Shown here piece by piece: positions 7,597 through 16,772 of a DNA stretch of 28,871 nucleotides. Within the stretch, counting starts at the first letter, position 1, and every line of letters begins with the position of its first letter. The notes under the pieces were generated by a model. The model was not told where the DNA came from. It ran no database searches and saw only the letters and a list, made by a program, of their open reading frames with translations. Where the stretch lies: positions 1-28,871 of IMG/VR virus record IMGVR_UViG_3300049216_000630. One strand, given 5' to 3'. The position numbers were made by a program, and so were the translations under genes. The DNA is from a virus.

Positions 7597-7905
7597 ATGG
7601 CAACAGGTTCAACGCAACCATTCCGGCCAGCTGGCACGCTGGCCTTGGCGGCCTCAACCAGTTCGGCGAATGCTGCACTTGTGGGCGGCGGTGGGGCGGT
7701 GCTGGTTTATAATGCTTCAAGTGCCACGGCGTTTTTTCGGCTGGGTGCGGCGAGCGGGTTGACGGCGCTGACCAGCGATACGCCGGTGCCGCCGGGGGCA
7801 AGGATGCTGGTGGATGGCGGGCCGTTTGTGAACACGGCAGCAGCGATTCTCTCAGCCGGTACGGGCACCGTGTATTTCACCTTGGGCGACGGGGATACGT
7901 ATTGA
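7597..7905 (+). CDS. Small head-associated protein, possible decoration protein
   Basis: A 102-residue protein right after the capsid gene, with AAGGGG eight bases before the ATG. It is rich in Ala, Gly, Ser and Thr and looks all-beta: 'FRPAGTLALAASTSSANAAL', then 'GAVLVYNASSATAFFRLG' and an end 'GTVYFTLGDGDTY'. I do not recognise a named family. Genes of this size and composition placed directly after the capsid gene commonly encode head decoration or head-fibre proteins; that role is inferred from position. The next gene starts two bases after its stop codon. Confidence 0.6.
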   Translation: MATGSTQPFRPAGTLALAASTSSANAALVGGGGAVLVYNASSATAFFRLGAASGLTALTSDTPVPPGARMLVDGGPFVNTAAAILSAGTGTVYFTLGDGDTY

Positions 7906-7906
7906 T

Positions 7907-8302
7907 ATGTCGCAATCCGTACCGGGAAGTTTCACTGATGCGCAGAAGGCAGATATTCGGCGGTTCTGCGGGTACCCGGCCTATGGCGCGACAGCGGCAG
8001 GGTTCAGTAATTGGCGGTTTTTTCAGGCCTATGGGACGCTGGAATACCGGCTGAATCATCTCGCACCGGCGGAAATTGCGGTGACTCTGCAATATGTCTC
8101 CACGCTCGCGACATTGGAGGCGGCGATTCCGCCGGCTTCGATGAATCTGGATACTGAGAGTGCGGCGGCGTGGACTCATAATAGCAATGAAATCGCCGAC
8201 CGGGCGAATTTATTCGATGGCTGGCGGCGGCGGTTATGTGGGTTTTTAGGTGTTCCGCCCGGCCCGGCTTTGAACAGTGCCGGCATAACATTGGTGGTGT
8301 GA
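7907..8302 (+). CDS. Head-tail connector (adaptor-like) protein
   Basis: A 131-residue mostly helical protein in the position of the phage neck adaptor (HK97 gp6-like). It begins 'FTDAQKADIRRFCGYPAYG', a typical adaptor opening where a helix leads into a 'CGYP' turn. A hydrophobic middle region ('AEIAVTLQYVSTLATLEAAI') is followed by a helix with 'WRRRLCGFLGVPPGP' near the end. Adaptors form a ring under the portal. Spacing of two bases to the preceding gene and one base to the next shows tight coupling within the neck operon. The role is inferred from position and the opening motif. Confidence 0.6.
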   Translation: MSQSVPGSFTDAQKADIRRFCGYPAYGATAAGFSNWRFFQAYGTLEYRLNHLAPAEIAVTLQYVSTLATLEAAIPPASMNLDTESAAAWTHNSNEIADRANLFDGWRRRLCGFLGVPPGPALNSAGITLVV

Positions 8303-8303
8303 G

Positions 8304-8948
8304 ATGGATGGTGTGCGGCTGGCGGACCGGCTCTCCTACGGGGCGGGGTGTGCGGCGCGGCGCCTGGGGTTTCTGCATGATGCGTATCGGCCCGAGGGGG
8401 CTGAGGCGCCGGTGGACCTCGCCAGGCGCTTCATGCGCCTCGCGGTGGCGTTTGTCTCGCCTGGTGGCGGTGTGGGCTCACCTGGCGGGTTTGGGGTGCC
8501 CTACCGGCAGGCCTGGGCGGATTGGAGCTATCTGCAGGTTGGTGACTATCTGGCGGGGCCTGAGGGCTGCGTGTTTGTGGCTGCGATTGAGCCGCCGCGG
8601 CCGATGCTGGTGGTGATGACCAATGCGGTGTTGAGCCTGTGGCGGCCGGCGGGGGCTCAGCTTGCTGGGGCAAACCCTTATGGCGCGCCGCTGGCGGTGA
8701 ATTTGACGCCGTTGCTTGAAGGATTTCCGGCAAGTTTGCTGGTGGGCGGGCTGGGTGACCGGACCCGGGCGGGCCTCGCCGATGATACGCGGGTGCCGGG
8801 ATTCGTGGCGCTGCTGCCGGCGGTGGGCTGCGTGCAGCCGCGGGTTGCGGATATTGCGACCAATGAGCGGGCCGAGAGATTTCTGGTGACATCGGCTGAG
8901 TCCGTTGGTGGCGTCTGGCGGTTATCGCTCGTGCAGGCGGTGAGCTGA
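8304..8948 (+). CDS. Neck protein, possible head-tail stopper
   Basis: A 214-residue protein between the adaptor-like and terminator-like genes. It is GC-extreme (46 of 60 bases are G/C at 8761-8820). The middle has 'YRQAWADWSYLQVGDYLAGP' and a following beta-rich segment 'VFVAAIEPPRPMLVVMTN'. The phrase 'DYL.GPEG..FVAA.EP..P' is reminiscent of proteins in this slot of alphaproteobacterial phages that deal with head-tail closure. I cannot name a family with confidence, so the stopper role rests on gene order. The stop and the next start share one base (TGATG). Confidence 0.5.
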   Translation: MDGVRLADRLSYGAGCAARRLGFLHDAYRPEGAEAPVDLARRFMRLAVAFVSPGGGVGSPGGFGVPYRQAWADWSYLQVGDYLAGPEGCVFVAAIEPPRPMLVVMTNAVLSLWRPAGAQLAGANPYGAPLAVNLTPLLEGFPASLLVGGLGDRTRAGLADDTRVPGFVALLPAVGCVQPRVADIATNERAERFLVTSAESVGGVWRLSLVQAVS

Positions 8949-9928: not shown

Positions 9929-11482
9929 ATGCCGATTTATGCACAAGGGGCGCTGAATACGACGGCGCTGATCGTACCGGATTTATATGTGCAGATTGTG
10001 CCGCCGCAGAGCCTGCTGCTGAATGGCGTGCCGACAGATGTTCTTGGCATTGTCGGCACCGCGAGCTGGGGGCCGGTGGGTGAGCCGGTGATCATCGGCG
10101 CGATGAGCGAATATGCTGCGAGCTTTGGTGCGGTGATGGCGCGCAAATATGATATGGGCACACAAGTTGCGACCGCGGTGCAGCAGGGCGCGGCGAATTT
10201 CCGCTGCGTGCGGGTGACCGATGGGACGGATAGTGCGGCATCGCTCTCACTGTTCGGGGCAGCGAATTTTACCGCTATTTATACCGGCAGCCAGGGCAAT
10301 GCGCTGACATTGAGTTTGGCGTCTGGCTCGGCTGCGAACTCATGGCGGTTCACGGTCTCGATGCCGGGGCTGAGCCCGGAGGTGTTCGATAATATTCCGG
10401 GCTCGGGGGCGGTGTTCTGGAATAATCTTGTCAATGCCGTGAACCATGGCAATGGGGTTTTGCGCGGCCCTTCAAATCTGGTGGTCGCGAGCCTGCTTTC
10501 GGCGAGTGCGGCGCCGGTTGCGGGGACGTATCCGTTTTCCGCCGGCACGCCGGGCACTGATGGCGCGGCGACGATCAACGTGGCGAAACTTGTGGGCGCG
10601 GACGTGTTGCCGCGTACGGGCATGTATGCGCTGCGCGGCCAGGGTTGTTCCATTGCGTTGCTGGCCGATGCCGATGATGCCACGCAGTGGAGCGTGCAGG
10701 TGGCGTTTGGTTTGAGTGAGTCGGTGTATATGATCTTTACCGGGCCGGCGGGTGATACGATCACCAATGCGGTGGCGGTGAAGGCGACTGCCGGGATTGA
10801 TACCTATGCGGCCAAGATGATGTTTGGTGATTGGGTGTATTGGTATGACCAGGCAAATGCGCTGACCCGGCTGGTATCGCCGCAGGGATTTGTGGCGGGG
10901 CGGCTTGCGAATTTATCGCCCGAACAGTCATCGTTGAACAAGCCGCTATATGGGGTGACCGGCACGCAGAAATCCGGCCAGCCAGGGCAGGGCACCGCAA
11001 CGACTTATGCGACGGCGGATTTATCGGCATTGCTCTCGGCCGGAATTGATGTGATTGCCAATCCGCAGCCGGGTGGCAATTACTGGGGCGTGCGGGGCGG
11101 GCATAATGCGTCCTCCAATGCCGCGATCAATGGTGATAATTATACGCGGCTGACGAATTACATTGCACGGACATTATCGGCCGGCATGGGTGCTTATGTG
11201 GGGCAGCTGGTGAATGCGACTTTGTTTCAGAATATTCGTTCGACCCTGCTGGCATTTTTGAATGGGCTGCTGAGCCAGGGGATGCTGGGCAGCACTGATG
11301 GATCTCTGCCCTTTGCGGTTGTTTGTGATACCACGAATAATCCCGCGAGCCGAACTGGTTTGGGTTATGTGCAGGCGGATTGCCAGGTGCAGTATCAGGC
11401 GATCAACGAGAAATTCATTGTCAATGTGCAAGGCGGGCAGACCGTTCAGGTAAGCCGGCAGAGCACTGCGGTGAGCGGTTAA
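9929..11482 (+). CDS. Contractile tail sheath protein
   Basis: A 517-residue sheath subunit, which makes this a contractile-tail phage. The N-terminus 'YVQIVPPQSLLLNGVPTDVL' followed by 'GIVGTASWGPVGEPVII' is the usual sheath opening. The body includes 'QGAANFRCVRVTDGTD', and 'GTDGAATINVAKLVGADVLP' recalls the sheath pattern 'GTDG'. The C-terminal domain ends 'YVQADCQVQYQAINEKFIVN' and 'VQGGQTVQV', the conserved handshake-strand region. GGGAGG at 9917-9922 is a strong ribosome site. Length is typical. It is followed 13 bases later by the tube gene. Confidence 0.93.
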   Translation: MPIYAQGALNTTALIVPDLYVQIVPPQSLLLNGVPTDVLGIVGTASWGPVGEPVIIGAMSEYAASFGAVMARKYDMGTQVATAVQQGAANFRCVRVTDGTDSAASLSLFGAANFTAIYTGSQGNALTLSLASGSAANSWRFTVSMPGLSPEVFDNIPGSGAVFWNNLVNAVNHGNGVLRGPSNLVVASLLSASAAPVAGTYPFSAGTPGTDGAATINVAKLVGADVLPRTGMYALRGQGCSIALLADADDATQWSVQVAFGLSESVYMIFTGPAGDTITNAVAVKATAGIDTYAAKMMFGDWVYWYDQANALTRLVSPQGFVAGRLANLSPEQSSLNKPLYGVTGTQKSGQPGQGTATTYATADLSALLSAGIDVIANPQPGGNYWGVRGGHNASSNAAINGDNYTRLTNYIARTLSAGMGAYVGQLVNATLFQNIRSTLLAFLNGLLSQGMLGSTDGSLPFAVVCDTTNNPASRTGLGYVQADCQVQYQAINEKFIVNVQGGQTVQVSRQSTAVSG

Positions 11483-11495
11483 GGGAGAGCAGGAT

Positions 11496-11924
11496 ATGCC
11501 GTATAATACGTTTTCTGTTGGCAATGACTGCCAGATTGTGGTGATGGGGCCGTTCGGGCGGGTTGATCTGGCGCATGTGACGGGGTTTGAGGCCGCACAG
11601 GTGACGCAGGCCGTGCGGGTGGACCGGATGGATGGTGTGCAGCTGGGGGCGGAGTTGCCGAAAGGCTGGCAGGGCATGTTTACATTGGACCGCGGGTCAT
11701 CGGCGGCGGATGATTTTATTGCTGCGATCGAGGCGGCTTATCTGGCGGGGCAATCGATTGGTGCCGGTACTTTGTATCAGTATGTGAATGAGCCTGATGG
11801 TTCAACCTCGACTTATCAGTTCAGCGGCGCGGTGTTCAAGCTGACATCCGCCGGCGCGTACCGGGGGGATGCGCCAGTGGCGCAAAGGTTGCAGTTTTAT
11901 GCCTCGAGCCGGGTGCGGGTTTGA
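11496..11924 (+). CDS. Tail tube protein
   Basis: A 142-residue protein directly after the sheath, the standard position for the tube subunit that forms the inner channel of a contractile tail. It is beta-rich: 'FSVGNDCQIVVMGPFGRVDL', a loop, then 'GWQGMFTLDRGSSAADDFIA' with the single helix expected of tube proteins. The last strands are 'YQFSGAVFKLTSAGAYRGD'. AAGGGAG at 11481-11487 lies eight bases before the ATG. Its stop overlaps the next start by one base (TGATG), coupling tube and chaperone translation. Confidence 0.85.
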   Translation: MPYNTFSVGNDCQIVVMGPFGRVDLAHVTGFEAAQVTQAVRVDRMDGVQLGAELPKGWQGMFTLDRGSSAADDFIAAIEAAYLAGQSIGAGTLYQYVNEPDGSTSTYQFSGAVFKLTSAGAYRGDAPVAQRLQFYASSRVRV

Positions 11925-12226
11925 TGGAGCGGGTGATTACGGATAAGGCCGGGCGAAAGTTGACGCTGCGGAAGTTCGGCGTGTTGGAGACGTTGCGGCT
12001 GTTCAAGGCGCTCGGGCCGGAGCTTTCAGCGAATAATGCCTATATAGGCGTGGCGAGCTTCGCCGGTTCCGTTGCTATGATTGATGATGTGCCGATGCCG
12101 TTGCCAGCAAACGAATTGGCCGTTGAAGCGCTGATTGAGCGGCTGGGCGATGACGGCATGGAAGCGGTGATGGCGGCCGACAAGCCGGCATCGATGAAGG
12201 ACGTGGTTGCAGACGCGGGAAACTGA
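11924..12226 (+). CDS. Tail assembly chaperone, short (G-like) form
   Basis: A 100-residue protein at the site of the tail assembly chaperone, after the tube. It starts at ATG 11924. The sequence 'DKAGRKLTLRKFGVLETLRL' followed by 'FKALGPE' is a typical chaperone opening, where a beta hairpin leads into a helix. The remainder is helical and acidic ('LAVEALIERLGDDGMEAVMA'). The final sense codons are GCG GGA AAC before TGA, and they form a -1 slippery heptamer. The short form should be the major product, with a minor extended form made by frameshifting. Such chaperones bind the tape measure protein, yet no full-length tape measure gene follows. Confidence 0.8.
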   Translation: MERVITDKAGRKLTLRKFGVLETLRLFKALGPELSANNAYIGVASFAGSVAMIDDVPMPLPANELAVEALIERLGDDGMEAVMAADKPASMKDVVADAGN

Positions 12227-12239
12227 GCCGGCACCCGGC
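12217..12239 (+). promoter_or_regulatory. Programmed -1 ribosomal frameshift site with stimulatory hairpin
   Basis: GGGAAAC at 12217-12223 is read G GGA AAC in the chaperone frame, an exact X XXY YYZ heptamer. Lambda G/GT uses GGGAAAG. Slippage places GGG and AAA in the -1 frame. The zero-frame TGA follows at once (12224-12226). From 12227, GCCGG, a CAC loop and CCGGC (12235-12239) form a five-pair GC-only hairpin. The -1 frame is closed upstream by TGA at 12151 and stays open to 12396. Confidence 0.85.
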
Positions 12240-12396
12240 ACTGACGGATTGTTTGTATCTTGTTAGATGCGGGGTGCCTTATGATGTGGCGTTTGGGCTG
12301 GATGAGGCGGAGCGGATGGCTTATGTTGTTGTACTGGGGCGCTTAAGTGGTTTGCAGTTTGATTGGCGGCAGCTACGGTGGGATGAATCGCTTTAA
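12223..12396 (+). CDS. -1 frame extension of tail assembly chaperone (T-like part of GT fusion)
   Basis: After slippage at 12217-12223 translation would continue from CTG at 12223 for 57 codons to TAA at 12394-12396, giving a fusion of about 157 residues with the 100-residue chaperone. The extension reads as real protein: 'HPALTDCLYLVRCGVPYDVA', then 'FGLDEAERMAYVVVLGRLSG' and a Trp/Arg-rich end 'FDWRQLRWDESL'. It lacks its own ribosome site and a good early start codon, which fits expression only by frameshifting. By analogy with lambda gpGT the extension would recruit tube subunits to the tape measure-chaperone complex. Confidence 0.8.
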   Translation: MSRHPALTDCLYLVRCGVPYDVAFGLDEAERMAYVVVLGRLSGLQFDWRQLRWDESL

Positions 12397-12430
12397 TCCT
12401 TATTGAACGAAGTCCGGCTAAACGTTTGAT

Positions 12431-13393
12431 ATGAGAAAAATTCTGTTCTTAGGCTTGGCGTTTTTATGTCCCGTTTTTTTGGCAGCCGTCATTGCGTTTT
12501 ATCGTTATGACGGCATGTATGGCATTAACACCGTTCTGCATGGCGGAGCGACACGGTGGCTTACGATGCGGGGTGATGATACGTTTCTGCCGATGGAAAT
12601 TCAGTGGGCGCTTGCCGGCCAGCCGCCCGAAGCGACTTCCGGGCCGCTTGCCTGGCGGCTGATTGAGCCGGGGCTTGACGTTTCGGAGCTGCCCGTGCTT
12701 GCGCGCGGGCGCCAAGTTGATGATATATTGCTGACGCGGATTGACCCTGCGAGGTTTCGATTTGTATTGCAGAACAGGGCCTCGGGGGATCGCGACCTCG
12801 CCGGCTGGATGAGCGCATCAAAGCCAGTTGTTCTGATCAATGGTAGTTATTTTTCACCCGGCGGGCAGCCGGATACGCCATTTTTAAGCGAAGGCCGGCT
12901 GATCTCGGCGCGGAATGACCCGGCGGCGCAGGGTGCGTTTGTCGCCGGAGCGGCTCCGGCGGTGGTGGAGGCTCTAAGGGATGGCGATTGGCGCGACGCA
13001 TTCCACGGGGCGGGGAATGCGCTGGCGACGTACCCGTTGTTGATTGGGCCATATGGGTATAATAGAGCCATTCAAGAAAGCCATTGGGTGGCTAACCGCA
13101 GTTTTGTGGGTGAGGATGGTAATGGCCGGATTATTCTGGGTACAACGAAAGATGCGTTCTTCTCGCTCGCCCGGTTTGCAGAATTTCTTCATGCGGCGCC
13201 CCTGGGGTTGAGGATGGCGTTGAACCTGGATGGCGGCCCGGTGGCCTGCCAGGCAGTAGATACGCCTGAATATCAACGGCGTTTTTGCGGGGAGTGGGAG
13301 ATACGCGACCACAGCGGCTGGTTCAAGGTATTAAAGATGCCACCGGGAAGCTGGATACAGTTGCCGGTTGTTTTGTTGGCGTATCGAAAGTAA
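12431..13393 (+). CDS. Membrane-anchored phosphodiester glycosidase (NAGPA-like) domain protein
   Basis: A 320-residue protein. Residues 4-23 are one hydrophobic helix after 'MRK', so it is an uncleaved anchor or signal peptide with the domain outside the cytoplasm. The domain carries motifs of the phosphodiester glycosidase (NAGPA) family in order: 'VVLINGSYFSPGG' at 133-145, 'ATYPLLIG' at 199-206, 'NRSFVG' at 222-227 and 'MALNLDGGP' at 262-270. The family removes sugars from phosphodiester linkages; here that could act on an envelope polymer, which is inference. Base composition matches the phage neighbours, unlike the next genes. It sits where the tape measure gene is expected and has no clear ribosome site. 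Confidence 0.75.
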   Translation: MRKILFLGLAFLCPVFLAAVIAFYRYDGMYGINTVLHGGATRWLTMRGDDTFLPMEIQWALAGQPPEATSGPLAWRLIEPGLDVSELPVLARGRQVDDILLTRIDPARFRFVLQNRASGDRDLAGWMSASKPVVLINGSYFSPGGQPDTPFLSEGRLISARNDPAAQGAFVAGAAPAVVEALRDGDWRDAFHGAGNALATYPLLIGPYGYNRAIQESHWVANRSFVGEDGNGRIILGTTKDAFFSLARFAEFLHAAPLGLRMALNLDGGPVACQAVDTPEYQRRFCGEWEIRDHSGWFKVLKMPPGSWIQLPVVLLAYRK

Positions 13394-13415
13394 TCTTTAT
13401 AAGTGTAAATGATAT

Positions 13416-13827
13416 ATGATGATAGCGCGAGATGTCACGGAGTTTTTAGCTTTGTGGCCTATTTTGGCTATTCCAGAATTTTTTATCTTGCTTACTTTGT
13501 CAAAGGTTTTTCGCGCAGGTGGATCAAGTAAATCCAAACTATTTCTTTGCTCACTGCCAGGTATTTTGATTGCTTTTTCGTGGTATAGTTCTGTAGGAAT
13601 TTTTTTTGATCCCGGCCATTTGCTGTGGACTTTAGTCATTGCTCCGACAAATATATTTTCACCTGTCGCATTTCTATATTCGATTATATCCGAGTTTTTT
13701 ATTCAAAAAATATGATTTTGCAGCGCGGGGGAAAAAGATCGAAATTTTACTCGTGATATTTTTGTTGTTTCTTTATTCATACGAACAACTGATTGTGATC
13801 CTATCGGCTGGCGATGCCGCAGAGTGA
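13416..13827 (+). pseudogene. Frameshifted four-helix membrane protein (cassette copy 1)
   Basis: Two overlapping frames together make a full-length paralogue of the membrane protein at 14055. Frame one (13416-13715) gives 'WPILAIPEFFILLTL' and 'PTNIFSPVAFLYSI', matching 'WPILCVPEGIILYTI' and 'PTNILAPLALIYSI' in copy 2. It then hits TGA at 13713. The other frame supplies the missing last helix, 'ILLVIFLLFLYSYEQL', matching 'MLLLIIMLVLYLYDQV'. Removing one base from the A6 run at 13705-13710, or from T6 at 13695-13700, restores the reading frame. It may be a decayed gene, an assembly error or slippage-dependent expression. The local sequence is AT-rich: 19 of 60 bases are G/C at 13441-13500. 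Confidence 0.7.
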
Positions 13828-13849
13828 TACATAAAAAGGTAAGGTGAGC

Positions 13850-14053
13850 ATGTCTAATCTTGATCCTCCACCATACGATAAAAATGCATTAGATTATATT
13901 TCAAAAAATGTGCGGGTCATTAAAAGCATAAGTGCTCAACTTAGTGTTTCATCTACTGCGGTAGCAGCGAGCATTTCTCGTGAAATCATACGAGCCGACG
14001 GTGAAATAGTCGCTGGAGCCTTGCTAATTTATCTCACCTTGATTGGCTTATGA
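13850..14053 (+). pseudogene. Truncated N-terminal stub of the cassette effector (copy 1)
   Basis: A 67-residue ORF with AAGG five bases before ATG 13850. Residues 12-51 match the N-terminus of the 249-residue protein at 14482: 'STAVAASISREIIRADG' here against 'PEAVAGSMAREISRADG' there. 'NALDYISKNV' also parallels 'DALKYVSENV'. The similarity stops right after 'RADG', and a short hydrophobic tail of about 16 residues ends the ORF. The remaining 190 residues of the copy are missing. It could be a pure relic, or a retained small protein in which the shared N-terminal domain still works alone. Confidence 0.65.
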
Positions 14054-14054
14054 A

Positions 14055-14456
14055 ATGATATTTCATCTCGAATCGCCGACCGATTTTGTGGCCTCATGGC
14101 CAATCCTTTGTGTTCCTGAAGGTATTATTCTGTATACTATTACAAAGTATTTCGGCTTTGAACCATCTCGTATACGGATGCTTCTATGCATTTCCTTGCC
14201 CGGATTGGTTTTAACAATTTTATGGGTGGCTCTCTTTAGCCAAGAATTTGACGAATTTTTTTTGGCCAGTATTGTTTTTATTCCGACTAACATACTGGCG
14301 CCGTTAGCTTTGATTTATTCGATCGCCCGTCCCTTCGTTGTTTCAGATGGTCATTCGCGCGCCTGTTCGAACTTCACAATGTTATTACTTATAATAATGC
14401 TTGTCTTATATTTATATGATCAAGTCACTGTATTCGCGGATCCTGGTGACTCTTAA
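14055..14456 (+). CDS. Four-helix membrane protein, cassette copy 2 (immunity- or holin-like)
   Basis: A 133-residue protein, nearly all hydrophobic. Probable membrane helices lie at about residues 11-32, 39-60, 66-91 and 106-126, with short polar links ('EPSRIRM', 'VVSDGHSRACSN') and an acidic end 'ADPGDS'. The start is taken as ATG 14055, two bases after the stub's stop. There is no ribosome site, so it may depend on coupling to the stub. I do not recognise a named family. Pairing with the soluble protein at 14482, and its retention in two copies, suggest an immunity protein for an envelope-directed toxin. A holin next to a lysin is the main alternative. Confidence 0.65.
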   Translation: MIFHLESPTDFVASWPILCVPEGIILYTITKYFGFEPSRIRMLLCISLPGLVLTILWVALFSQEFDEFFLASIVFIPTNILAPLALIYSIARPFVVSDGHSRACSNFTMLLLIIMLVLYLYDQVTVFADPGDS

Positions 14457-14481
14457 CTGAGCGTTACTGTGAGGTCAAAAG

Positions 14482-15231
14482 ATGTCGGCCTATCCCCCTC
14501 AGGCTTACCATTCTAATCTAACGCCCCAAGACTATAATGAAGATGCGTTAAAATACGTGAGCGAAAATGTGACATCGATCAACGAGACCGCTAACCGCCT
14601 CGGAGTATCGCCTGAGGCTGTAGCTGGGAGCATGGCGCGGGAGATTTCACGAGCAGATGGCGCAGCCCCGTATAGTGGAATAGGTCACAGTCTTGCTGTT
14701 TGGAAAGCCCTGAATTTTACTTCCCAACAAGAATTTGCCCGAAATTACGCAGGAGACCTTAAACAAATCAATAAAGATAAAGGTGCATTTGATGGGGATA
14801 TAGGTTTCATAAAAAGAGTTTTGCATCCAACGCTTTCCGACATCGGACTTGGCGCGATTAAAGTATTAACCGCATTTCAGATCATCAAACAATATCAAGA
14901 TACTCCGCAAGGCAAAGCCCTTGGTTTGGATGAGTGTAAACTGACCGATTTGAAGACCATCGTTAATAATCTGAATGATCGTAGTCACTCACTCAGCATT
15001 AAGATTGCCGGGCTTGTCGTCTTGAATGGCCAAAAGTTTTTCGGCGACGAATCCATCGATGGCATTCCTTGGCCAAAGCTTACGAAGGAACAGCAGGATA
15101 CGGCGCTGACCGCTTACTATACGACTGGCGAGCACGCAATTAGCGTGGATATGGAGCAAAATGAATTTCGTCCTTATACGCCGGGACCGGAAAGGTGGCC
15201 AGGTTGGGCCGTGGATTTTGTTTGGTCATAA
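14482..15231 (+). CDS. Effector-like cytosolic protein, possibly lysozyme-like (cassette copy 2)
   Basis: A 249-residue protein with GAGG at 14471-14474, seven bases before the ATG, and no signal peptide. Residues 41-60 read 'GVSPEAVAGSMAREISRADG', resembling the helix of lytic transglycosylases and lysozymes that carries the catalytic Glu ('G(V/I)xPxLxAAIxxxES'); Glu54 would be that residue. 'HPTLSDIGLGAIKVLTAFQI' at 115-134 could be the matching substrate-groove segment ('D.G.G...'). A later part, 'YYTTGEHAISVDM' and on, is unrecognised. The muramidase reading is a hypothesis from short motifs. The start of this protein is duplicated in the stub at 13850. The gene is AT-rich and foreign-looking. 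Confidence 0.55.
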   Translation: MSAYPPQAYHSNLTPQDYNEDALKYVSENVTSINETANRLGVSPEAVAGSMAREISRADGAAPYSGIGHSLAVWKALNFTSQQEFARNYAGDLKQINKDKGAFDGDIGFIKRVLHPTLSDIGLGAIKVLTAFQIIKQYQDTPQGKALGLDECKLTDLKTIVNNLNDRSHSLSIKIAGLVVLNGQKFFGDESIDGIPWPKLTKEQQDTALTAYYTTGEHAISVDMEQNEFRPYTPGPERWPGWAVDFVWS

Positions 15232-15922
15232 TTATTCAAACCTGAATGCGATATTGACGAAAGGCAGATCGTTTCGGCTTTCGGTTGCCCCGGTGCCGCG
15301 GCCAAAGCCGCAGCAACAGGCGTCATCCAAGTACATGAAACATGCCGAAGCTGGAGATATTCTTGCTCCGGTGGGAAGAATTTTAGATGCGTTGCCGGCG
15401 GACCGTCACTCTGTTGTTCATACAATGGCGAACGCCACAAATGCGCCGGCCACAAAATATATTGCCAGACCCGGAGGGCTGCCGCATGCGTTAGCGCAAG
15501 GCGCAAATTATGCCTTTCATTCTGCGGTGACGCAGCGCGGCAGCAAACATGTGGCAGTTGCGCAAGGGCGGCCGAGTGATTTGAATCCCGAGTTTATCCG
15601 GGCACAAAAAAATGTATTGCCGGCGCTGTACATGTCACTAACAAGCCAGCGCGAGGTGCTACCTTCGATAGCGCCCGCGGCCGGTCGGCCAGGGGTCATG
15701 TCAACGCAACAATTAACGCGCCATCATTCAATGGCGATTTCGTCAAGTGATTGCCAGGATTCAATAGCAGCGCATTCTATGGCAAAAAAAATCGGCAAGC
15801 AAAATTTGCGCTTGGCAATGAGTGATTTGCTGAACGCTCAGGCGCGTTTGCCGCCTTCGGGGCCGACCGCGTTTGATCCGCGGCTGACGCCGGCCTGGGC
15901 GGGGCTGAAACTGCCGCAATAG
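15161..15922 (+). CDS. Unrecognised protein, possible C-terminal remnant of a tape measure protein
   Basis: A 253-residue ORF that overlaps the end of the 14482 gene by 71 bases in another frame. GGAG at 15153-15156 lies four bases before ATG 15161; TTG 15254 is an alternative. It is Ala-, Pro-, Gln- and Ser-rich and low in structure-forming segments ('PVPRPKPQQQASSKYMKHAE'). The end, 'ARLPPSGPTAFDPRLTPAWA' followed by 'GLKLPQ', resembles tape measure C-termini in related prophages as I recall them. A gpU-like gene follows, which is the usual neighbour of a tape measure. Base composition returns toward phage-like GC from about 15280. A remnant joined to the inserted block is likely but not proven. 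Confidence 0.45.
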   Translation: MNFVLIRRDRKGGQVGPWILFGHNYSNLNAILTKGRSFRLSVAPVPRPKPQQQASSKYMKHAEAGDILAPVGRILDALPADRHSVVHTMANATNAPATKYIARPGGLPHALAQGANYAFHSAVTQRGSKHVAVAQGRPSDLNPEFIRAQKNVLPALYMSLTSQREVLPSIAPAAGRPGVMSTQQLTRHHSMAISSSDCQDSIAAHSMAKKIGKQNLRLAMSDLLNAQARLPPSGPTAFDPRLTPAWAGLKLPQ

Positions 15923-16079: not shown

Positions 16080-16772
16080 ATGAGCATGATTTATGTGACC
16101 CTGGGGGATGTGACCTTCCAGGATTTCGAGGTGCCTGAGCGGATACGCTTTGGCGGCGAGCAGCGTACCGCCGTGCATGAATTGATCGGCGGTGGCCGGG
16201 TGGTGGATGTGCTGGGCGGGCAGCCGGCGGAGATTGGCTTTCACGGAATTTTCTCCGGTACTGATGCGGCAGCGCGTGCGCAATCACTTGATTCTGCCCG
16301 TGCCGCTGGGGCTGTTCTTGCGCTTGGCTGGGATGGGTTTTTTTACCATGTGGTGATTGCGGACTTTGAGGCGGCTTATGAAAAGCCGTTCTGGATTCCA
16401 TTTCGTATCACCTGCCTTGCGGTCTCTGATAGTGCAATCGCGGCGGCGGCGATTGTCATTCCGGTGGGCAGCCTGATCAGCTCTGATCTGGCGGTGGTGG
16501 CGCAATGGGCTGGTGCTGCGGGGCTTTGCACGCAGAATTTTAATGCCGCGAATGCTGTGGCGGCACAGGCTGGGTGCGATATGGCTGTGAATGTGGCAGG
16601 TGCAAACTTAATCCGAAATATGGACATCGTTAATAATCCGACGACGCCGGATGCCGCGGTTACAGCACTTGCCGGGGTGAGCCAGAATAGCGGAAGGCTG
16701 GCGGCGGCTTGCTATGCCGGCGGATATCTGGCGCGGGCGGTTCAGAACATCGGGCTGGGAGATCTGGCATGA
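16080..16772 (+). CDS. gpU-like tail/baseplate protein
   Basis: A 230-residue protein. The first 120 residues resemble P2 gpU/T4 gp53-type tail proteins. They have 'ERIRFGGEQRTAVHELIGGG' and 'VDVLGGQPAEIGFHGIFSG', then a helix and a strand pair 'FWIPFRITCLAV'. P2 gpU likewise has 'rigk..a.qflG.g.....l.G...pe..gg'. The C-terminal half is Ala/Gly/Asn-rich and helical, a family-specific extension. It would join the tube end to the baseplate hub. The ATG overlaps the end of its leader at 'GAGGCTGC' and the stop overlaps the LysM gene in an ATGA. It resumes the phage operon after the cargo block. Confidence 0.65.
   Translation: MSMIYVTLGDVTFQDFEVPERIRFGGEQRTAVHELIGGGRVVDVLGGQPAEIGFHGIFSGTDAAARAQSLDSARAAGAVLALGWDGFFYHVVIADFEAAYEKPFWIPFRITCLAVSDSAIAAAAIVIPVGSLISSDLAVVAQWAGAAGLCTQNFNAANAVAAQAGCDMAVNVAGANLIRNMDIVNNPTTPDAAVTALAGVSQNSGRLAAACYAGGYLARAVQNIGLGDLA

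Follow-up and report, generated by a model that had tools for sequence, protein, structure and literature searches.

The tail locus and its -1 extension

The stretch of DNA analysed here, called the window, is the whole IMG/VR record IMGVR_UViG_3300049216_000630 (28,871 bases), and appears to be a phage-like element from acid-loving bacteria of the family Acetobacteraceae. The gene order runs from terminase through portal, capsid, sheath (phrog_23), tube and chaperone to the interval 12431-15922, which is followed by a conserved baseplate-side gene, by the hub, spike and baseplate genes, and by the fibres. Apart from that of the sheath, these names are presumptive, being given partly from position and general knowledge, and those of the baseplate are partly positional. 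The features in and around the chaperone gene are the following:

9929-11482, plus strand: contractile tail sheath (phrog_23, E=8e-51)
11496-11924, plus strand: tail tube, named from position and conservation (phrog_12993, unknown function, E=8e-37)
11921-12226, plus strand: zero-frame tail assembly chaperone (G-like), 101 aa, with its TGA stop at 12224-12226
12217-12223, plus strand: slippery heptamer G_GGA_AAC, adjoining the chaperone stop, its heptamer class kept in relatives
12223-12396, plus strand: T-like extension in the -1 frame, 57 codons and TAA (open frame 12223-12393, TAA 12394-12396)
16080-16772, plus strand: conserved baseplate-side tail protein, at which the tape-measure slot ends (phrog_21362, E=1e-39)

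The chaperone gene lies 3' of the sheath and tube genes. In searches against PHROGs its product matches phrog_20383 (E=8e-19) and, weakly, phrog_508 'tail assembly chaperone' (E=0.075); across the family phrog_20383, of unknown function, matches 44/44 members and phrog_508 matches 4/44, again weakly (best E=0.0047). An AF2 model of the chaperone (pLDDT 88) resembles the 'Tail assembly chaperone' of Bacillus phage Gemini (BFVD probability 0.98, E=0.024), and a fold search of the PDB with the same model gave no match.

Relatives were gathered from IMG/VR by means of the chaperone, the tube and the extension, and also from phage records. A tube profile search of GTDB genomes located them in Acidocella, Acidiphilium, Acidisphaera, Rhodopila, Acidicaldus and other Acetobacteraceae; most of the relative loci are metagenomic. 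Because these sequences are related to each other, the locus counts given below are non-independent tests.

The motif GGGAAAC is unremarkable by itself, with 5 occurrences in the window against 3.24 expected; the heptamer together with the extension stands far above chance because both are conserved in the relatives. A heptamer of the X_XXY_YYZ type is found at the chaperone end in 137/138 distinct loci, in the forms GGGAAAC (125 loci), AAAAAAC (10), CCCAAAC (1) and AAAAAAA (1), GGGAAAC or AAAAAAC accounting for 135 of the 137. The two codons that make up its last six bases are uncommon in the window, where GGA is used for 38 of 423 Gly (9%) and AAC for 40 of 176 Asn (23%), and both are invariant in the GGGAAAC loci (125/125). 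The zero-frame stop directly follows the heptamer in 127 loci; in a further 10 it lies 3, 18 or 36 nt farther downstream with the heptamer intact, and therefore the stop is not the reason for the retention of the heptamer. L161 is the sole relative lacking a recognisable heptamer, and in it the chaperone frame still abuts that of the extension.

The extension encodes 57 residues (LSRHPALTD...FDWRQLRWDESL), and among the relatives its length is 45-72 aa (137 loci, mostly 54-62). Its median dN/dS is 0.24 in the -1 frame versus 1.19 and 1.77 for the two remaining frames, values which indicate purifying selection on the extension as read in the -1 frame, and in no other. An earlier note, made from the letters of the window alone, had described G_GGA_AAC on the chaperone stop together with an open 57-codon -1 extension, and had read them as a GT-type programmed frameshift signal that simple gene calling would miss. 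Both elements are present in the sequence as it stated, and their conservation among the relatives, as given by the heptamer counts and the -1 frame dN/dS above, supports the GT-type reading. The signal has thereby withstood a check that the note itself had named as able to refute it, namely a lack of conservation in homologues.

The Komagataeibacter phages phiKX1 and phiKX2 (LC644975, LC644976) illustrate how easily gene callers miss such a signal. Their sheath, tube, chaperone (phrog_20383) and T extension are homologous to those of the window; unlike the window, they carry the heptamer AAAAAAC, and their annotation lists the extension as an independent gene, in phiKX1 a hypothetical one. 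An extension with a CDS of its own, as annotated in phiKX1, would also agree with a relic, or with a reading frame translated separately by re-initiation. Against this, purifying selection acts in the -1 frame from the first codons and the heptamer is fixed in register, so that we find this explanation hardly credible.

The long-range RNA stem

The first pointer to a structure behind the heptamer came from the codons GGG GTG, about 48 nt downstream, which are almost invariant at silent sites and pair with GGCACCC. The resulting long-range stem, GGCACCC(C)/(G)GGGTGCC, has 7-8 bp and begins 6 nt past the heptamer. Its parts, and the local hairpin with which it competes, are located as follows:

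12224-12229, plus strand: spacer of 6 nt, starting with the zero-frame stop codon, of constant length in all aligned relatives
12230-12236, plus strand: 5' arm of the stem, GGCACCC, pairing with 12272-12278
12237-12271, plus strand: loop of 35 nt, folding further in single sequences, with no conserved inner helix
12272-12278, plus strand: 3' arm of the stem, GGGTGCC, with compensatory silent changes
12227-12239, plus strand: local hairpin GCCGG-CAC-CCGGC of the earlier note (GCCGG 12227-12231, CCGGC 12235-12239), judged a by-product

In an ungapped alignment the six core pairs of the stem are intact in 130/130 distinct sequences, and 96.2% of the cells in the stem columns are paired, compared with 45-54% when the columns are shifted by 1-3. 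Double compensatory changes occur at two column pairs, a pattern equalled in 0/500 shuffles, and by sequence they belong to at least three lineages (the L028 group, L103 and L101). The best single evidence for the stem, in our view, comes from the Gly codon, whose silent third base changes in step with the partner arm: where the partner codon is that of Pro or Ser the Gly codon is GGG (125/125), with Ala (GCC) it is GGC (4/4) and with Thr (ACC) it is GGT (1/1). The Val codon in the arm is GTG in 129/130 sequences, the lone exception pairing with an altered partner. Moreover, the Arg, Gly and Val codons of the arms are near-fixed at silent sites, whereas the same residues elsewhere in the extension have mixed codons.

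Out to 150 nt, no other 6-bp helix is shared by all 134 sequences compared (100%). The stem is part of the MFE fold in 130/131 sequences, and for the window sequence the RNA fold has a z of -4.1. A conserved inner helix or pseudoknot was sought out to 150 nt and none was found, and an Rfam search of 11900-12450 returned no family at E<=1. With 6 nt, the covariation-supported stem stands within the usual distance of 5-9 nt between a heptamer and its structure (PMC7618472).

The signal can also be recovered without reference to the proteins. A DNA-only pattern search in which the gap was left free between 30 and 40 nt gave at least 119 stretches, and among the matches listed all of the distinct stretches examined (74/74) have the 62-nt span and the T domain. 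The same stem is present in phiKX1, behind AAAAAAC and in an extension that is 35% identical. It was met again by an RNA-model match in a phiKX1-like prophage of another genome (L203, 1500-1570), where AAAAAAC precedes a GGCACCC/GGGTGCC stem. Applied to 385 genomes of the class, the RNA model gave, besides the query genome, one clear match (G364, a phiKX1-like prophage), all remaining matches being weak or false.

The earlier note had counted as part of the signal the GCCGG/CCGGC hairpin that begins 3 nt past the heptamer. This hairpin is indeed present in the window and forms when just 40 nt are folded, but its role as stimulator did not hold. Most relatives are without it, single-sequence folds give it in just a handful of loci, and together with an adjacent small predicted helix it pairs in 48.8% of cells versus 49.1% in shuffles (65.5% of cells for the hairpin helix alone). 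In addition, a spacer of 3 nt is short, and of the two competing structures, hairpin and long-range stem, it is the stem that appears in the MFE fold. On account of its lack of conservation and its shuffle-level pairing we rejected the local hairpin, and we consider it very improbable that it acts as the stimulator; the alignments make the long-range stem the better-supported candidate.

Two further observations concern other possible stimulators. In L073 (8885-8931) the heptamer is CCCAAAC, the long-range stem is lost and a strong local GC hairpin is found (-36 kcal/mol for 40 nt), possibly a natural replacement of the stimulator. A Shine-Dalgarno-like upstream motif occurs in a minority of loci only, and was for that reason rejected as a conserved upstream stimulator.

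Proposed frameshift mechanism

Frameshifting in tail-chaperone genes is a textbook case of recoding, and the -1 signals of bacterial dnaX and of IS elements consist of a heptamer with a downstream stem-loop at a short spacer. These last signals differ from the present one in the genes concerned, in the long loop found here and in the upstream Shine-Dalgarno-like motif, which is not conserved here. The -1 frameshift of the lambda G/GT tail chaperone (Xu, Hendrix and Duda, reviewed in PMC5009743) uses the heptamer G_GGA_AAG (PMC7618472). The two systems are alike in having the chaperone gene near the tube gene, an X_XXY_YYZ heptamer near its 3' end, and a short -1 extension followed by the tape-measure slot. 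They differ in the A-site codon, which is AAC here and AAG in lambda, in the conserved, covarying long-range stem located here at 6 nt, and in the element itself, a contractile one of Acetobacteraceae whose slot protein is short and partly low-complexity.

We propose that a stem-stimulated -1 frameshift yields G and GT products at this locus, an explanation that we hold to be very probably correct. Most ribosomes would terminate at the TGA at 12224, giving the 101-aa chaperone (G-like), while a minority would pause with the long-range stem, 6 nt 3' of the heptamer, at the mRNA entry channel. Both tRNAs would then slip together from GGA AAC to GGG AAA, and CTG (12223-12225) would be read next, the resulting G-T fusion ending at 12396. 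On the analogy of gpG and gpGT in lambda, the length-setting protein of the tail lumen would be coated by G, with tube subunits brought in by the T part. The heptamer, the extension and the stem are present and selectively kept in the relatives; the occurrence of the slip and its stimulation by the stem we infer from the sequences, and the ratio of the products, like the roles of G and GT suggested by the analogy, is presumed. For comparison, the product ratio in lambda is 30:1 (PMC5009743), and a frameshift level of 6-7% was given for the two tail-chaperone genes tested in another study (PMC3711429).

Some observations weigh against parts of this mechanism. The identity of the stem arms is partly a protein constraint, since both lie in conserved codons (RHP, GVP), the covariation amounts to about three independent lineages, and a loop of 35 nt is unusual for a simple stimulator. 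L161 is without the heptamer and L073 has a different hairpin. In E. coli, AAC in the A site is less slippery than AAG. The coincidence of the arms with conserved residues would also suit a slip brought about by the heptamer alone, as described for lambda, the inverted repeat then serving another purpose, such as regulating how the downstream genes are transcribed or translated, or acting as a protein-binding site; a review describes the frameshift of certain tailed phages as seemingly proceeding without stimulatory signals (PMC5009743). However, the spacing of the stem is constant at 6 nt even where the next gene differs or the stop has moved, and the stem contains silent compensatory changes, so that an unstimulated slip seems to us unlikely.

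The stem also bears on the possibility that the two products arise by transcriptional slippage instead of ribosomal frameshifting. Some relatives have runs of A6C or A7, but the GGGAAAC of 125/137 loci is no homopolymer, and a ribosomal slip accounts better for an RNA stem placed behind the site; we judge slippage during transcription to be very unlikely.

Frameshifting of the lambda G/GT type was already known, and what is new in the stem-stimulated frameshift proposed here is an RNA stimulator supported by covariation in the sequences. With more than 130 natural variants in one family, covariation points to the candidate stimulator, silent substitutions tracking the changes in their partners, and the natural compensatory pairs make the use of RNA stimulators in phage tail frameshifts directly testable. 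The RNA search model R1 finds the signal where gene callers overlook the extension.

The tape-measure slot and the nature of the element

Between the extension and the baseplate-side gene at 16080, a homologue of which is present in phiKX1, lies the slot in which a tape-measure gene would be expected by comparison with lambda. In the window it contains the following gene, in two parts:

14482-15231, plus strand: N-terminal part of the slot gene, similar to intact 470/496-aa homologues
15161-15922, plus strand: C-terminal part of the slot gene, including its conserved C-terminus ..ARLPPSGPTAFDPRLTPAWAGLKLP

The reading frame of this gene (14482-15922) is broken between 15161 and 15231 and close relatives have intact copies; the break in the record may be either an assembly error or a real mutation. 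Most relatives have a protein of 250-512 aa in the slot, which is empty in about 18 distinct loci. The slot proteins have a common C-terminus (..ARLPPSGxTGFDPRLTPAWAG..), and its profiles from two clades match each other in every member tested. When whole genomes were searched, a gene with this C-terminus was found in 14/14, the empty-slot genomes included. Its place was read in three of the empty-slot genomes, those of A. facilis, A. aromatica and Acidocella sp. clean1021, and in each of them the gene follows the lysis-like genes at the element's 3' end:

L191 9789-10565, L192 (reversed) 7853-8695 and L193 9264-10097: relocated gene, 3' of endolysin- and holin-like genes

The order tube, chaperone, extension is followed in most loci by a slot gene that is a tape-measure candidate, and in some this gene is relocated. 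The earlier note had taken the tape measure to be missing, probably through a recent replacement, or else supplied elsewhere. The arrangement is family-wide, and a recent loss is contradicted by the presence of the conserved C-terminus in all 14 genomes, in the slot or relocated; complete loss of the tape measure was dropped on the same ground. Supply from elsewhere agrees with the gene at the 3' end of the element in several Acidocella relatives, its identity as a tape measure being itself putative.

As to this identity, the C-terminal profile, searched against 3451 ORFs, has the phiKX1 tape measure as its best match, at E=0.12. In phiKX1 and phiKX2 the slot is unlike that of the window and contains, besides other genes, one for a protein of 742 aa that resembles tape measures (phrog_28, E=1e-6). 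The profile link between the slot protein and this 742-aa protein is no more than suggestive. The slot protein of the outgroup clade has a Pro/Ala-rich middle and an N-terminus, AYEIG(I/V)xL, that by eye is like that of the phiKX1 protein. The slot proteins do not have the form of long helical lumen proteins, being 250-512 aa long with a Pro/Ala-rich or low-complexity middle in many, and the AF2 model of a 496-aa homologue has a mean pLDDT of only 39. With PF10145, the tape-measure model of Pfam, there was no match in 16 related virus records, Pfam and PHROGs gave no usable family for the slot proteins, and a search of the literature by title gave no phage case of a tail without tape measure. 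The slot protein may be either a measure of tail length or a cargo.

The slot gene joins one C-terminus to at least three unrelated N-terminal domains, as compared between the window gene (14482-15922) and L002, L003, L007, L016, L018, L029, L031, L033, L034, L036, L038 and L041, and in some loci small membrane-protein genes lie upstream of it. From the sequences, this layout is a modular, payload-like one.

The distribution of the element in bacterial genomes was also considered. In Acidocella, 22/38 genomes have a single RNA-model match per genome, and across the family a tube homologue is found in 64/150 genomes, mostly in single copy. Four Acidocella species share a chromosomal site (L191, L192, L193, L194, L195, L196, L197, L201), flanked on one side by genes for a Kup-like transporter, a CCA-adding-enzyme-like protein and a small HTH protein, and on the other by that for ribosomal protein L20 (all named by eye); no integrase was noticed in the Acidocella flanks read. 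The structural genes of the element are under purifying selection. The element looks vertically inherited in Acidocella, and is possibly domesticated.

The single matches in 22/38 genomes, the shared flanks and the absence of a noticed integrase, together with the purifying selection, the three or more unrelated N-termini and the upstream membrane-protein genes, hint at a vertically inherited, contractile phage-derived machine, gene-transfer-agent-like or tailocin-like. In such a machine, which we put forward as a tentative and rather doubtful possibility, the tape measure would be a modular payload, with a constant C-terminal tail-docking domain and exchangeable N-terminal domains, and the stem-stimulated frameshift would keep tail assembly in balance. 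Similar Acetobacteraceae phage-like contigs, likened here by description, have been reported from Sphagnum metagenomes, as part of a 'core virome'; these contigs have P2/Mu-like baseplate genes, occur in Acetobacteraceae chromosomes as well, and were discussed as cryptic prophages or co-opted elements; the description of those contigs does not bring in a frameshift, a stem or the tape-measure question (PMC12142844).

Two features of the interval between the chaperone and the slot gene may be added. At 12431-13393 the window encodes a phosphodiester glycosidase (NAGPA, PF09992, E=8e-13), a gene found in part of the relatives only and located downstream of the slot gene in L012. In the segment 13416-14053 there is another small membrane-protein gene, the second, together with an ORF of 69 codons (13844-14053) in which the N-terminus of the slot protein is repeated (76% identity to L002), a layout that looks like the trace of a cassette exchange.
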